Assembly (NCBI GenBank): GCA_030041985.1
Contig: JASIAM010000266.1
Location: forward strand, 1 to 64,000
Source: Bryobacteraceae bacterium
Lineage (GTDB): Bacteria; Acidobacteriota; Terriglobia; Bryobacterales; Bryobacteraceae
Direction: 5' to 3'
Length of the DNA: 64,000 bases
Below are positions 47,443 to 55,166 of the stretch, one piece after another. Below the pieces are notes generated by a model that saw only the letters and a program-made list of their open reading frames with translations, did not search any database and was not told the DNA's origin. Each line of letters starts with the position of its first letter. The stretch's first letter is position 1. Both the position numbers and the translations under genes were made by a program.

Positions 47443-48535
47443 ACCACCCATCGCTGTCGCTATGAGCGGTGGCGTCGACAGCTCCACGGTAGCCGCGCTG
47501 CTGGCGCGCCAGGGGCGCAGTGTGATCGGGCTGACGATGCAATTGTGGAACCAGCGCAGGCTTCCGGAACTGGTGCCCGAAGGAGGCGCAACTGGACGAT
47601 GCTGCTCGCTCGACGACGTCTACGACGCCCGCCGCGTGGCCGAGCAGATCGGAATTCCTTATTACGTGGTGAATTTCGAGGAGCAGTTTGAAGAACGCGT
47701 GGTGGCTCCGTTTGTCGAGGAGTATCTGGCAGGGCGGACGCCCATTCCCTGCACGCTCTGCAACAACTACATCAAGTTCGATCGCTTCCTGGAGATGGCC
47801 GATGCCGTGGGCGCGCACCACATCGCGACCGGCCACTACGCCCGCGTGCGGCAGCGCGACGGCCGCTACCAGCTTCTGCGCGCCGTCGATCCCTCTAAGG
47901 ACCAGACTTATTTTCTGTTCGGATTGACGCAACAACAACTCGCCCGCACTTTGTTCCCCTTAGGCGAGATGACCAAGACCGAAGTGCGGGCGCTAGCTCG
48001 CAGTTTTGATCTGGCCGTAGCGGCGAAGAGCGATAGCCAGGAGATCTGCTTTGTGCCGAACGGCGATTACGCCGGATTCCTGAGCGCCTGGTTGCGGGAA
48101 CGCGGCGAGCGCGTGCCGTCTGCGGCCGGACCGATTGTGAACTCCGCCGGACGGACGCTGGGCGCCCATGCAGGTGTGCACCACTTTACGGTCGGACAGA
48201 GGCGCGGGCTGGGTATCGCCGCGGGCGAACCGCTCTATGTGATCCGCACCGACCCCGAATCACAGCAAGTCGTGGTGGGCGGCCAACACGAATTGCTCCG
48301 CTCGCAACTCGCTGCCACGGAGGTGAACTGGATTTCCATCGCCAGCCCCTCGCAGCCCGTGCGGGCGCAGGTGAAGATTCGCAACAAACACGCAGCGGCC
48401 GCGGCATGGATCGAGGCCTCTGCCGAGGGCCGCGTCGAAGTGAATTTCGATGAGCCGCAGCGCGCCATCACTCCGGGGCAGGCCGCGGTGTTCTACCAGG
48501 AAGACCTGGTTCTAGGTGGTGGATGGATCGAGTGA
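47435..48535 (+). CDS. mnmA: tRNA-specific 2-thiouridylase
   Basis: A 366-residue ATP-dependent thiolase. AVAMSGGVDSSTVAALL is the PP-loop, PIPCTLCNNYIKFDRFL holds the nucleophile Cys, and SDSQEICFVPNGDY the second catalytic Cys. HHFTVGQRRGLGIAAGEPL and the C-terminal beta barrel also match. It makes s2U34 in tRNA-Lys, -Glu and -Gln using sulfur from the upstream desulfurase. It overlaps the upstream gene by eight bases and the acyltransferase gene by thirteen, so the three are one transcript. Confidence 0.95.
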   Translation: MPEPPIAVAMSGGVDSSTVAALLARQGRSVIGLTMQLWNQRRLPELVPEGGATGRCCSLDDVYDARRVAEQIGIPYYVVNFEEQFEERVVAPFVEEYLAGRTPIPCTLCNNYIKFDRFLEMADAVGAHHIATGHYARVRQRDGRYQLLRAVDPSKDQTYFLFGLTQQQLARTLFPLGEMTKTEVRALARSFDLAVAAKSDSQEICFVPNGDYAGFLSAWLRERGERVPSAAGPIVNSAGRTLGAHAGVHHFTVGQRRGLGIAAGEPLYVIRTDPESQQVVVGGQHELLRSQLAATEVNWISIASPSQPVRAQVKIRNKHAAAAAWIEASAEGRVEVNFDEPQRAITPGQAAVFYQEDLVLGGGWIE

Positions 48536-49455
48536 GAGCGCCGGCCCCTCGGCATTACGCCGAATTCGCGCTCGTCTGGCTCGTTCTGAAGTCCCTTGAG
48601 TGGACGCCGCTTGCGCTGGCGCAGCGTCTGGCTCGCGGTTATTTGCGGCTGGCCGATCTCACCCTGCCCCGCCTCCGCCGCGTAGCGAATCGCAACCTTT
48701 CCCTCGCCCTTCCGGAACTCAATGCCGAACAGCGCGTGGCAATTATCGCGGGCGTGTTCCGCTCCGTAGCGCAGCTATTGGTGACCATGGCCAGATTCCC
48801 ATCCATCCACCGCAAGAACCTGGACCGCTGGATTCGCTTCGAAGGATACGAACACTTTGAGCATGCGCGCCGCGCCGGGCGCGGTGTTCTGTTTGCCACC
48901 GCACACCTGGGCAATTGGGAATTCAGCGCCTACGCTCACGCCCTCTTCGCGGGGCCGATGAACGTGGTGGTCCGGCCCCTGGATAACCCGCTCCTCGATC
49001 GCCTGGTAACGCGCCGGCGCGAGCTTTCCGGAAATCGTGTTCTCTCCAAGCGGGATCCTGCCCGGCCCATTCTGAAAGCGTTAGCTGCCAACGAAGCAGT
49101 GGGGGTTCTGATCGACCAGAATGTCTCTACCGACGCGGTATTTATCGATTTCTTTGGGATTCCCACGGCGGCCGCTTCCGGTTTCGCCCGCCTGGCCGCC
49201 CGTAGCGGCGCAGCCGTAATTCCCGGCTTCGCTTTGTGGTCCGGCGAAGAGCAGCGTTACGTGCTGCGCTTCTATCCGCCGGTTGCGATGAGCGGTGATG
49301 CGGTGCGCGACACCCAGGCTTTACAGAGCGTGCTGGAAGCCGTAATTCGGGCACATCCCGACCAGTGGTTGTGGATTCACCGGCGCTGGAAAACGCGTCC
49401 TCCGGGTTCTCCTCCTCTGTACGAAGCTTCACCCGCTGCCTGTGATGCCCTGTAG
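48523..49455 (+). CDS. LpxL/HtrB-type lysophospholipid acyltransferase
   Basis: A 310-residue membrane-associated acyltransferase. TAHLGNWEFSAY holds the HxxxxE active-site pair, MNVVVRPLDNPLLD the substrate region, and AVGVLIDQNVSTDAVFIDFF the LpxL-type block. It would put a late fatty acid on lipid A or on another glycolipid. It overlaps mnmA by thirteen bases, an arrangement that joins tRNA modification with envelope synthesis only by transcription. The C-terminus is unremarkable. Confidence 0.82.
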   Translation: MDRVRAPAPRHYAEFALVWLVLKSLEWTPLALAQRLARGYLRLADLTLPRLRRVANRNLSLALPELNAEQRVAIIAGVFRSVAQLLVTMARFPSIHRKNLDRWIRFEGYEHFEHARRAGRGVLFATAHLGNWEFSAYAHALFAGPMNVVVRPLDNPLLDRLVTRRRELSGNRVLSKRDPARPILKALAANEAVGVLIDQNVSTDAVFIDFFGIPTAAASGFARLAARSGAAVIPGFALWSGEEQRYVLRFYPPVAMSGDAVRDTQALQSVLEAVIRAHPDQWLWIHRRWKTRPPGSPPLYEASPAACDAL

Positions 49456-49473: not shown

Positions 49474-51306
49474 ATGAAACGGTTCCCTCGCTCGCCACTG
49501 CACAGCAGCGTGTTTGCGCTGTTGGTCACAGCATTAGCCGTTTTGCTGGCGGTCTTGTTCGGGTCCTTGTTGGCCCCGGATGCTTATCTTCTATTTGTCG
49601 CCGCGATTTGGGCCAGCGCTTGGTATCACGGCCGGGAAGGCGGATTCACCGCCACCGTTTTATCCTCTCTGATCTTTCTGTTCTCCTTTTTTGCTTCCGG
49701 CACGGATCACGAACCGATTCCAGTGCGCTTGCTGCGGCTCCTCTCCTTCGTGATGTTAGGGGTTTTCGTAACGTGGCTGACGGCTTCGTGGCAGGACAGC
49801 CGGAGGCTGCTTGTATCCACGCTTTCGAGCATTGGAGATGCCGTGCTGGCCACCGATAAAGAAGGCCGGATCACGTTTATGAATACGGTTGCCGAGGCGC
49901 TGACCGGCTGGTCGGCTGAGGACGCGCGGAGAAAAGACGTGAGGGACGTGATCCGATTGATTGATGAGGTCAAGCGGGAGCCTATCGAGAATCCTCTATC
50001 GCGCGCGTTGCGGGAGCGTGTGATGGTAACGCTGGCCGAGAGTCCACGCCTGATCTCGCGTAGCGGCGCCGAAGTGCCCACCGAACAAACCGCAGCGCCC
50101 ATTCGCGAAGATTGGGGCGAACTGCGCGGCGGCATCCTGGTATTTCGCGACATCAGCCGGCGCCGCCAGCTCGAAGAGCAGGTCACGCACGCGCAGAAAA
50201 TGCAGGCGGTAGGGCGCCTGGCCGGCGGCGTAGCGGGCGATTTCAATAACGTGCTCACCGTGATCACCGGATATGCGGAATTGTTGAAAATGGATGTGCC
50301 GGCGGCCAGCAACCTGCGCCGGTTTGTGGACGAGATCATTTACGCTGGAGAACGGGCCGCGGGTCTTACGCGCCATCTACTCGCGTTCAGCCGCGGCCCC
50401 GGGGCGCAACCAAGTGTATTGGATCTCAACTCCATCCTGAGCGAACAAGAGCCGATGCTGCAGCGTCTGCTGGGACGCACCATCGAGCTGGTTCTGCTGC
50501 CCGGTCCCAACCTGGGCCGTATTGCCGCCGACCCCGCGCAAATCGAGCAGGTGATCGTTAACTTCGCCACCAACGCCCGCGACGCCATGCCCGAGGGAGG
50601 CAAGTTTGTCATTGAGACCGAAAATGTGTATCTGGAGACGGCGGACGGCAAAAATCTGGATCTCAAGCCCGGGCCTTACGTGATGCTGGCCATCAGCGAT
50701 ACCGGCGTTGGCATGGATTCCGAGACCCGCTCGCGCTTGTTTGAGCCGTTCTTCACCACCAAGGATCCCGGAAAAGGCAGCGGCGGATTGGGCTTGGCGA
50801 CGGTATACGGGATCGTGAAGCAGTACGAAGGCCAGATCACCGTGTACAGCCAGCAAGGGCACGGCACTATCTTCGAAATCTACCTGCCGCGAGTGGCGGA
50901 GGCGGCGGTGCCGGCGGCGCGCAAGCTCTCTCCCAAGGGTTCGGAAACCATTCTGCTGGTGGACGACGAAGATGGCGTGCGCCAGCTTGTTTCGGCCGTG
51001 CTGAAGTCCCACGGCTATGATGTGCTCGAAGCCAGCAATGGCGGCACCGCGCTAGCCACCTATGAGAAGAACGGCCACAAAATCGACATGGTCCTCACCG
51101 ACGTAGTCATGCCGCAGATGAACGGTTTTGATCTGGTGCGGGAACTGGCCCACCGCGCGCCCACGCTCAAGGTTCTGTTTATGTCCGGTTATCGCGACAA
51201 TCCCGGCGAGGCCGCGGCGGGTGAAGCCCCCAGAGCTTTCCTCCACAAACCGTTCACCCCCGACAGCCTGCTGAGCAAAGTGCGCGAAGTGCTGGATGGA
51301 CAGTGA
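49474..51306 (+). CDS. Hybrid histidine kinase lacking the phospho-histidine
   Basis: A 610-residue protein: three N-terminal membrane helices (12-105), PAS domain (~112-230), HisKA-type helix pair (~235-305), HATPase (N-box [11 protein letters not shown] with Asn367, [25 protein letters not shown]) and a receiver (VDDED, phospho-Asp543 in [11 protein letters not shown], Lys592 in LHKPF). The expected AHDFNN H-box reads GGVAGDFNN: Gly255 (GGC at 50236-50238) replaces His. The ATP lid and receiver look intact. It may be a pseudokinase, phosphorylate a partner in trans or bind a ligand. No frameshift is present. Confidence 0.9.
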
Positions 51307-51319
51307 TCCCGGTCCAGCA

Positions 51320-51741
51320 GTAAGGCTTCATAGTTGTTGGATCGCCCTGGGCCATGGCGTTCAGGCTGGTATTGCGCAGAAATTCATAGGCCGTGCCATG
51401 GAACTGGTTGGTGCCCGATCGGAGGGCGGTGGTGATCACGCCGCCGCCCACGCGCCCGTATTCCGCGCTGAAATTGCTGGTGAGAACTTTGAATTCCGCA
51501 ATCGCATCCGGAGAAGGCTGCACCACCTGGCTCGAGTAGCCTTGGTTACTGGTGCCGTACGCGTTGTTGTCGAGGCCGTCGAGCAGAAAATTGTTATAGG
51601 TGCTGCGCATGCCGTTAATGTTGATCGCGCCTTCGCGTGGGGTACGGTGCCCAGAACTTCGCTGGTTTCGAACTGCGCGTAGAGAGGGGCAGCCGGGAGA
51701 AGAGACAGTAAGAGCAACTTGCCGTACAGGTGTCGATTCAT
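51320..51741 (-). pseudogene. TonB-dependent receptor relic with internal deletion
   Basis: The start at 51741 gives a signal peptide and mature start typical of acidobacterial TonB receptors ([31 protein letters not shown]). The frame then breaks. In a neighbouring frame come [39 protein letters not shown] and the [20 protein letters not shown] plug-domain block, ending around [11 protein letters not shown]. The carboxypeptidase-like domain (~100 residues) between them is gone, and the barrel is missing beyond ~51330, where the convergent kinase gene ends. Confidence 0.8.
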
Positions 51742-51823
51742 ATGAATCTAAGATCATGCCAGCGAGGTAGACGACAGTTGGGTTATCGGTGTGTAACGAT
51801 CACTTAAGAGTTGTAAAAGACCA

Positions 51824-52741: not shown

Positions 52742-53872
52742 TCCGGCAACTCGTCTTTACCGTCCCCCGCGATTTTGCCCGTCTTCCGCCACACCAGCCA
52801 AGCGTGAATGAGCGGCTCCAGATTGCCATCGAGGACGCTATCCACATCGCCGATGGCCAACTTGCTGCGCAGATCTTTCACTAATCGGTAGGGCGCCAGC
52901 ACATAATTGCGAATCTGGCTGCCGAAGTTGATATCGAGCTTGGAGTCTTCGGTCTTGCGAGTTTCTTCGCGCTTCTTTTCCAGTTCGTATTCGTAGAGCC
53001 GCGCGCGAAGCTGCTTGAAAGCGCTGTCGCGGTTCTTATGCTGCGAGCGCTCGTTCTGGCACTGCACCACGATGCCCGTAGGAAAGTGCGTGATGCGCAC
53101 GGCCGAATCGGTCATATTGACATGCTGGCCGCCGGCGCCCGAGGAGCGGAACGTGTCGATACGCAGATCGTCGGGGCGGATTTCGATTTTGATTTCGTCA
53201 TCCACCTGCGGATAGACGAAGACGGAAGCGAACGAGGTATGCCGGCGAGCGTTGGCATCGAAGGGGGAAATGCGCACCAGGCGGTGCACCCCGATTTCCG
53301 ATTGCAGCAGGCCGTAGGCGTTTTCACCATTGACCTCGAAAGTAACGGATTTGATGCCTGCGCCTTCGCCCTCGAGGCGATCCGTGATCACGCATTGAAA
53401 ACCTTCGCGCTCCGCCCAGCGGAGGTACATGCGCAGGAGCATCTCTGCCCAGTCCTGGCTTTCGGTGCCGCCTGCTCCGGGGTGAATGGTCACGATGGCG
53501 CTGCGGGCATCGTTTTCCCCGGAGAGAAGCATGGCGGTTTCCACTTTTTCGAGCAGCGCGCCATAGTTGTGCATCTCGCGGGCGATATCGCCGGAAACAT
53601 TTTCGCCTTCGCGCATCAGCTCGAAGAGAGTGTCGAGATCATCGGTGAGCGTGCGGATACGGTCGTCGTTAGCGATGGTTTCTTCCAACCGCTTACGATC
53701 CTGCATCACTTTCTGGCTTTTTTCGGGCTGGCTCCAGAACTCAGGCTGAGCGATCTGGTCTTCGATTTTGGCTAATTTTTGTTTTTGCGCCGGAGCGTCA
53801 AAGATACCTCCGCACAGCCAACGCCTGTTCGCGGAGGGGGAGGTAATCTCGGTCTAAGTCTTCTACAGTCAT
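52738..53872 (-). CDS. prfB: Peptide chain release factor 2, with programmed +1 frameshift
   Basis: RF2 recognises UGA and UAA stop codons. The first 24 codons (ATG at 53872-53870, [15 protein letters not shown]...) end at an in-frame TGA (53800-53798) inside AGG-TAT-CTT-TGA-C, the classical autoregulatory site. A +1 shift then joins the main frame, giving about 377 residues. [10 protein letters not shown] supplies the SPF recognition motif and [17 protein letters not shown] the GGQ peptidyl-hydrolysis motif. The start overlaps the phosphoesterase stop (ATGA), and the end overlaps tsaC (ATGA). Confidence 0.96.
53797..53809 (-). promoter_or_regulatory. prfB programmed frameshift site
   Basis: AGGTATCTTTGAC on the minus strand: an SD-like AGG just upstream, slippery CTT and in-frame TGA followed by C. 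High RF2 leads to termination at TGA; low RF2 allows the shift. Confidence 0.9.
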
Positions 53873-54555: not shown

Positions 54556-54873
54556 TTAACGCTGCCGCGACATGACCGCCCGCAGAATCTCGTTGATGCG
54601 AGTGGAATAGCCCTCGCCATACTGCTTGAGCCAGTCAACCACATCGCGGTCCAGGCGCGCGGCCACCAGTACCTTGGTAGGCCGCTTGAATTCCGCGAGC
54701 TGCTCATCGGTCAATTCCGGAATGTCGGAATAATCGATCTTCGAGTCCGGCATGTTCCGCAGCCGGTTCAACCGCGCTTTCTGCTGCCGGGAAAGCGGCT
54801 TATTGAAAATATCCTCGGCCTTCACGCTCACCAGCTTTTCTCGCCGAGATGATACGGATGATTTCTTCGCCAT
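54556..54873 (-). CDS. BrnA-like antitoxin
   Basis: A 105-residue antitoxin. The basic N-terminus (MAKKSSVSSRREKLVSV) is followed by YSDIPELTDEQLAEFKRP and a C-terminal ribbon-helix-helix-like part (KVLVAARLDRDVVDWLKQYG, then STRINEILRAVM). AGGAG lies 11 bases before the ATG. The start lies inside the toxin gene, an overlap of 74 bp. It binds the toxin and probably the promoter palindrome. Confidence 0.8.
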   Translation of the reverse strand: MAKKSSVSSRREKLVSVKAEDIFNKPLSRQQKARLNRLRNMPDSKIDYSDIPELTDEQLAEFKRPTKVLVAARLDRDVVDWLKQYGEGYSTRINEILRAVMSRQR

Positions 54874-55084
54874 CGTCGTCAGTGCTCCTATAGATGTGAA
54901 CTACTAACAGGAGAACGCCATCTACCAGTCCGATCGCATGCCATCGCAATTCACAGTCTTCGTCCACGCGGTCTTCCCGGAGGACGTAATTCGGGTCTTG
55001 CCAAACTAACGCTGCGTCCTCGAACGCGACTCCGTGCTTCTTCCGGTTGCCAACGTTCTTTCGTTCGTCCCACTCAAAACGCAT
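54800..55084 (-). CDS. BrnT-like toxin
   Basis: The 94-residue product has the BrnT fold: MRFEWDERKNVGNRKKHGV, then FEDAALVWQDPN and the end IIRIISARKAGEREGRGYF, a RelE-like RNase family. The ATG at 55084 is chosen; an upstream extension to 55159 has low-complexity Cys-rich content and runs through the operator. It precedes brnA with a large overlap, the usual toxin-first order. It would inhibit translation when antitoxin is lost. Confidence 0.8.
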   Translation of the reverse strand: MRFEWDERKNVGNRKKHGVAFEDAALVWQDPNYVLREDRVDEDCELRWHAIGLVDGVLLLVVHIYRSTDDDGEEIIRIISARKAGEREGRGYFQ

Positions 55085-55085
55085 C

Positions 55086-55104
55086 GTTATACATATGGTA
55101 TAAC
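55086..55104. promoter_or_regulatory. Palindrome abutting the BrnT start
   Basis: GTTATAC-ATATG-GTATAAC, perfect 7-bp arms, ends one base before the toxin ATG. There is no ribosome site. It is a likely binding site for the BrnA-like antitoxin, blocking its own promoter or the ribosome. Confidence 0.55.
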
Positions 55105-55166
55105 ATGATAGGACCAAACAGCACCGCCTCCGCGGTGAAATTCCGCGCGCTGGCGGCAACCGTTGT

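Follow-up and report, generated by a model that had tools for sequence, protein, structure and literature searches.

A hybrid pseudo-histidine kinase lineage of Bryobacterales with glycine at the phospho-histidine position

HisKA domains that lack the phospho-accepting histidine make up about 0.9% of those sampled across bacteria (722 of 76,471; PMC12632262). Few of them have been traced as conserved groups, and the main one found in the literature is DivL. This conserved clade without the histidine has neither kinase nor phosphatase activity, but DivL still binds DivK~P and acts as a regulator of CckA (PMC4211667). The effect of losing this residue is also known from CrdS, in which the H371A change abolishes autokinase activity and the half-life of CrdA~P is 2.6 min, as against 53.5 min without the enzyme (PMC3510030). 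The gene described here lies in 64,000 nucleotides of DNA from a Bryobacteraceae bacterium (contig JASIAM010000266.1 of assembly GCA_030041985.1; this whole stretch is called the window) and codes for a hybrid HisKA protein with glycine at the phospho-histidine position. It belongs to one lineage of membrane-bound hybrid pseudo-histidine kinases, apparently handed down vertically, in which histidine changed to glycine once and glycine has been fixed since. Pseudo-histidine kinases as such were already known; the Gly clade is a new and unusually clean lineage of them.

The window protein has the domain set of a HisKA hybrid kinase of the type whose H-box reads LAGGxAHDFNN, and lacks the phospho-accepting histidine, its place being taken by Gly255. 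In the HisKA mechanism, a protein without this histidine is chemically excluded from autophosphorylation and from donating phosphate via its own DHp domain, and autokinase activity is expected to be absent here. Automatic annotation will nevertheless label such proteins “histidine kinase.” The gene and its parts are the following:

49474–51306, forward strand: pseudo-histidine kinase gene, a hybrid of the layout DUF4118(transmembrane)-PAS-HisKA-HATPase_c-REC, 610 amino acids (open reading frame and Pfam).
49513–49803, forward strand: DUF4118 N-terminal membrane region, residues 14–110 (Pfam).
49810–50169, forward strand: PAS domain, residues 113–232 (Pfam).
50212–50394, forward strand: HisKA (DHp) domain (Pfam).
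50236–50238, forward strand: Gly255 (GGC) at the phospho-histidine position (sequence; Gly in 27 of 27 orthologues, His in 29 of 29 paralogues).
50239–50250, forward strand: DFNN, residues 256–259, with the acidic +1 residue (26 D, 1 E) and the invariant +4 Asn259, the HisKA phosphatase residue (alignment).
50530–50892, forward strand: HATPase_c (CA) domain, with N-box N367, G1-box D409/G411/G413, F-box and K430 (Pfam, alignment).
50770–50796, forward strand: G2 box GKGSGGLGL, residues 433–441, with one extra Gly codon within 50782–50787 (alignment).
50950–51285, forward strand: receiver (REC) domain, with the clade-specific residues A508, R574 and L600 (Pfam, alignment).
51100–51102, forward strand: D543, the phospho-accepting aspartate of the receiver (alignment).

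All five domains score above their Pfam gathering cut-offs (DUF4118 30.6 bits, PAS_4 55.3, HisKA 29.7, HATPase_c 72.2 and Response_reg 79.2), and the HisKA, HATPase_c and receiver domains were matched in all 16 orthologues checked. An AlphaFold2 model places helices at residues 8–28, 38–74 and 82–119 of the membrane region (with low confidence at residues 1–35) and a single unbroken DHp helix at 228–274 that passes through Gly255, where the predicted local distance difference test (pLDDT) score is 63–67. With a mean pLDDT of 75.5 and a predicted template modelling score of 0.36, the model is too weak in its domain arrangement and around the adenosine triphosphate (ATP) lid for the G2 insertion to be assessed from it. 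The odd residue was first pointed out in an earlier note made from the letters of the window, and its reading frame, H-box, glycine and GGC codon are all exact on re-reading, as is its remark that CAC or CAT cannot become GGC in fewer than two base changes.

The glycine is a property of the whole orthologous group. A profile built from 16 members and run on 237 genomes of the family (Bryobacterales, Acidobacteriota), without selection for glycine, returned 27 orthologues at 777–1072 bits, the next best match scoring 589. These come from 27 genomes in 17 genera, and every one carries glycine at the phospho-histidine position, with all four glycine codons (GGC, GGA, GGT and GGG) in use. A protein search of 61 related genomes found seven full-length relatives besides the window protein (48–74% identity), all with glycine (GGC or GGA), and the other HisKA loci with the same H-box that were fetched alongside them all have histidine. 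The glycine is kept even in five orthologues whose neighbouring H-box residues have changed, which read GGVAGDFSN (twice), GSVAGDFNN, AGMAGDFNN and GGLAGEFNN; DFSN was read in L143 (genome G171) and L149 (G172). The earlier note had named a histidine in close orthologues as the observation that would overturn its proposal, and none was found. A sequencing error or a strain-specific mutation is therefore rejected as the source of Gly255, since every orthologue found has it.

The same residue was followed outside the orthologous group. Within the 237 family genomes, the motif GG[V/I/M]AxDFNN, with x being any codon that starts with A, G or T, occurs only in 22 members of the Gly clade (the scan leaves uncovered Gln, the CTN, CCN and CGN codons, and altered motifs), while the counts of the histidine form add up to 184 copies over 41 sampled genomes of this set. 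Recurrent loss of histidine in this type of kinase was thus rejected within the family, there being no non-histidine codon starting with A, G or T in the exact motif outside the clade. The exact motif GG[V/I/M]AGDFNN has 30 matches in a named collection that covers 84,980 species, and those that are kinases all come from the Gly group; the named records belong to Bryobacterales, Solibacteraceae or Bryobacteraceae and to other metagenome-assembled genomes of Acidobacteriota/Terriglobia. The matches in other phyla were set aside as unrelated, non-kinase proteins that carry the motif by chance. None of 399 sampled genomes of the class outside the family yielded an orthologue; their best matches reach 659 bits, and the seven that were read all have histidine.

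In a maximum-likelihood tree of 64 kinase cores (LG+C20+F+G4, by posterior mean site frequencies), a single branch with a support of 100/100 separates the 27 Gly sequences from all others. The clade is therefore monophyletic, and the tree needs one change from histidine to glycine and no reversal. The ratio of nonsynonymous to synonymous substitution rates (dN/dS) over the whole gene is 0.11–0.27 in eleven pairs; that of the CA domain is 0.055–0.126 in ten of them and 0.21 in the eleventh, and is usually below the value of the PAS domain. For pairs within the window's own genus, dS is near saturation and the ratios are rough. These low values show purifying selection and, being usually lower in CA than in PAS, suggest that nucleotide binding is needed. 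Together with the fixed glycine, the monophyly and the conserved gene order, they strongly support the earlier view of a functional pseudokinase rather than a decaying gene. The carriers are patchy (27 of the 237 family genomes), so the gene would often have been lost, or moved, and the common gene order favours vertical descent with loss.

The residues that would serve catalysis and phosphotransfer have largely been kept. N367, D409, G411, G413, K430, G438, G440 and D543 are invariant in every row of the alignment that has sequence there, N259 is present in all 27 orthologues, and residue 256 is D in 26 and E in one. The receiver phospho-site is retained in nearly all members, the acid-pocket exceptions being A497 in one and N498 in another. 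The residues that are fixed and specific to the clade lie mainly at the end of the CA domain and in the receiver (A508, R574 and L600); A508 lines up by eye with a DHp-contacting residue of RR468. The DHp positions taken as receiver-docking have not diverged from those of the paralogues. In the window copy itself, N367, the G1 box (DTGVGM), the F-box and the receiver residues D497/D498, D543, S571 and K592 are intact, as the earlier note had claimed for the N-box, the G-boxes and the receiver. The claim does not hold for the G2 box, which reads GKGSGGLGL and is one Gly longer than GxGxGLGL. None of the 26 other orthologues has this extra residue (all read ...GLGL); it is confined to the window genome, where it may stem from an error of assembly or be a genuine change of this strain, in which case ATP binding may be weakened.

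Some members depart further from the common form. The DUF4118 membrane region is shortened or absent in three orthologues (L081/L131, L149 and L153) that keep the glycine, which makes the glycine independent of the membrane sensor. In L149, where much of the membrane region is gone, one acidic residue of the receiver has also been lost (A497). L155 (G101) shows further erosion, with a degenerate G2 box (QVQSAGLGL) and GEFNN.

The neighbourhood of the gene is conserved on its upstream side, where one more feature is needed:

48523–49455, forward strand: lipid A acyltransferase-like gene (Lip_A_acyltrans, LpxL-like), ending 18 nucleotides before the kinase start; the conserved neighbour.

An LpxL-like gene lies directly upstream of the pseudokinase in 24 of the 27 orthologous loci, and the order iscS-mnmA-lpxL-pseudokinase is seen in several, the window included. 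The order is broken in G018 and G101, which belong to one genus, and in G102, with the glycine retained. No kinase remnant was detected behind the lpxL-like gene in 29 loci that have this gene and no pseudokinase, and no conserved downstream partner gene was found at the orthologous loci. In the window, a frame-broken remnant of a TonB-dependent receptor (51254–51757 and 51436–51741, reverse strand) sits between the pseudokinase and a Sua5-like gene; it consists of the Plug domain and positions 2–26 of an 838-position barrel model, with a signal-peptide-like start in another frame. Farther along are prfB (release factor 2; 52738 to about 53870, reverse strand), whose translation appears to rely on the classic programmed +1 frameshift, with GGAGG TAT CTT TGA C just upstream of the main frame and the slippery site near 53800, and a BrnT/BrnA type II toxin-antitoxin pair (54556–55159, reverse strand; Pfam PF04365 and PF14384).

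With one change on the tree, 27 species, 17 genera and the rest of the protein kept, the lineage is a clean natural experiment in which one can ask whether loss of the histidine gives a dedicated phosphatase, an allosteric sensor or a trans-kinase. The reading favoured here, tentatively and somewhat short of being probable, is that of a pseudo-histidine kinase working as a dedicated phosphatase or phosphate drain gated by signals and by nucleotide. As the histidine is absent, the receiver, if it is used, must be phosphorylated by something else. Other kinases or phosphotransfer proteins would charge the receiver of the pseudokinase or that of a partner, the DHp domain would hydrolyse the aspartyl phosphate through Asn259, and membrane and PAS signals would set the rate of hydrolysis, probably in the context of the envelope or lipid A. 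That another kinase may serve the protein's own receiver had been suggested earlier; the invariance of D543 and K592 fits this suggestion. The phosphatase function, absent from the earlier note, is favoured by the invariant +4 Asn and by published data on histidine mutants. All 27 orthologues combine the acidic +1 residue (D/E256) with the +4 Asn (N259) that characterise bifunctional or phosphatase HisKA proteins. In CrdS, where E372 and N375 are the equivalents of residues 256 and 259, the +4 Asn is dispensable for kinase activity and required for phosphatase activity, which N375A abolishes (PMC3510030). In EnvZ, the phosphatase activity is strongly stimulated by adenosine diphosphate (ADP; PMC7005713), and a similar effect would explain why the CA domain has been retained. 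A narrower version, in which a kinase-dead, lineage-fixed sensor acts only as a drain, its receiver loaded by other kinases, its Gly-type DHp hydrolysing under ATP/ADP and membrane control, and its output tied to lipid A acylation via the LpxL-linked locus, is possible and rather doubtful.

Several points weigh against a phosphatase. In HisKA proteins, the histidine itself plays a part in phosphatase activity. There is no cognate response regulator gene beside that of the pseudokinase, and the window copy's own G2 box has its additional residue. D256 is also kept, and its counterpart in CrdS, E372, serves kinase and not phosphatase activity (PMC3510030). Bourret et al. argue that the statistics of histidine loss do not favour a general phosphatase role for pseudo-histidine kinases (PMC12632262). 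The heaviest point is DivL, which has been conserved as a pseudokinase although it has no phosphatase activity (PMC4211667).

DivL is also the model for the first of the other explanations, in which the protein has no catalysis of its own and alters a real kinase by contact, its DHp domain binding a phosphorylated receiver that may belong to the protein itself or to a partner. The clade-specific fixed residues in the receiver and the match to CckA (5idj) as the closest solved structure by sequence would fit such a role, which is possible and less likely than the favoured one: the affinity of DivL for trinitrophenyl-ATP is more than 19 times lower than that of most prototypical kinases (PMC4211667), whereas the CA domain of the Gly clade is among its most constrained parts and the ATP residues are invariant. 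Those ATP-site residues, kept together with the acidic +1 residue, are what a trans-kinase would need, that is, a pseudokinase whose CA domain phosphorylates the histidine of a paralogue within a heterodimer. Heterodimers of paralogous kinases are known (ChrS/HrrS; PMC9491836), and the window genome encodes more than 10 histidine-bearing relatives with similar DHp surfaces. However, no partner kinase gene is conserved beside the orthologues, heterodimers are hypothetical here, and the window copy has a glycine inserted in the G2 motif of its ATP lid, so that this explanation is unlikely.

Less likely again is a role independent of phosphate, as a scaffold or ATP sensor whose histidine kinase core would serve only for dimerisation and whose receiver would bind a target and so control, for instance, the acyltransferase locus. 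The LpxL-like linkage in 24 of 27 loci and the clade-fixed A508, R574 and L600 would suit it, but such a protein could do without a complete phospho-site in its receiver and without the phosphatase Asn, which essentially every member has retained. A dying gene or an assembly error, with the histidine lost by chance or misread, could draw on the extra G2 glycine of the window copy and on the three members with a reduced membrane region (L081, L149 and L153). For the glycine itself, this is refuted: all 27 genomes, each assembled independently, carry it, and all four codons occur. Intact frames, conserved gene order and the dN/dS values of the eleven pairs make it highly improbable for the gene. 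The phosphatase or drain role is favoured over DivL-like allostery and the trans-kinase because Asn259, the ATP site and the receiver phospho-site are kept, the DHp docking positions have not diverged, and the CrdS H371A and EnvZ ADP data give it precedent.

Among known systems, CckA, an alphaproteobacterial hybrid HisKA kinase/phosphatase, shares the PAS-HisKA-HATPase-REC layout with the window protein. Its core (5idj) is the best sequence match in the PDB (E=2.2e-48, residues 238–472), and the NCBIfam CckA models are among the top matches, but far below their cut-offs. CckA has the phospho-histidine, whereas the window protein has glycine and a DUF4118 membrane domain and comes from another phylum, and neither of the CckA partners ChpT and CtrA is recognisable beside the window gene. 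ChrS of an evolved Corynebacterium glutamicum is a catalytically dead pseudokinase that still modulates signalling via its paralogue; it differs in having arisen by laboratory evolution, with a frameshifted and truncated CA domain, the histidine kept and the phosphatase function apparently lost (PMC9491836). DivL resembles the Gly clade in being a conserved clade whose orthologues have another residue in place of the phospho-histidine and an otherwise preserved core (PMC4211667). Searches gave no support for DivL orthology of the window protein, which has glycine at the site and is closest, among solved sequences, to CckA and other kinases. DivL has tyrosine (alanine in Magnetospirillum) and binds ATP poorly (PMC4211667), whereas the Gly clade has glycine throughout, an intact ATP site and a C-terminal receiver. 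CrdS H371A, the laboratory mutant of Myxococcus xanthus, likewise has a small residue in place of histidine and keeps the +4 Asn, and it has lost kinase and retained phosphatase activity (PMC3510030). The mutant is engineered, carries alanine and acts on a separate response regulator, whereas the Gly clade is natural, carries glycine and has its receiver within a hybrid protein.
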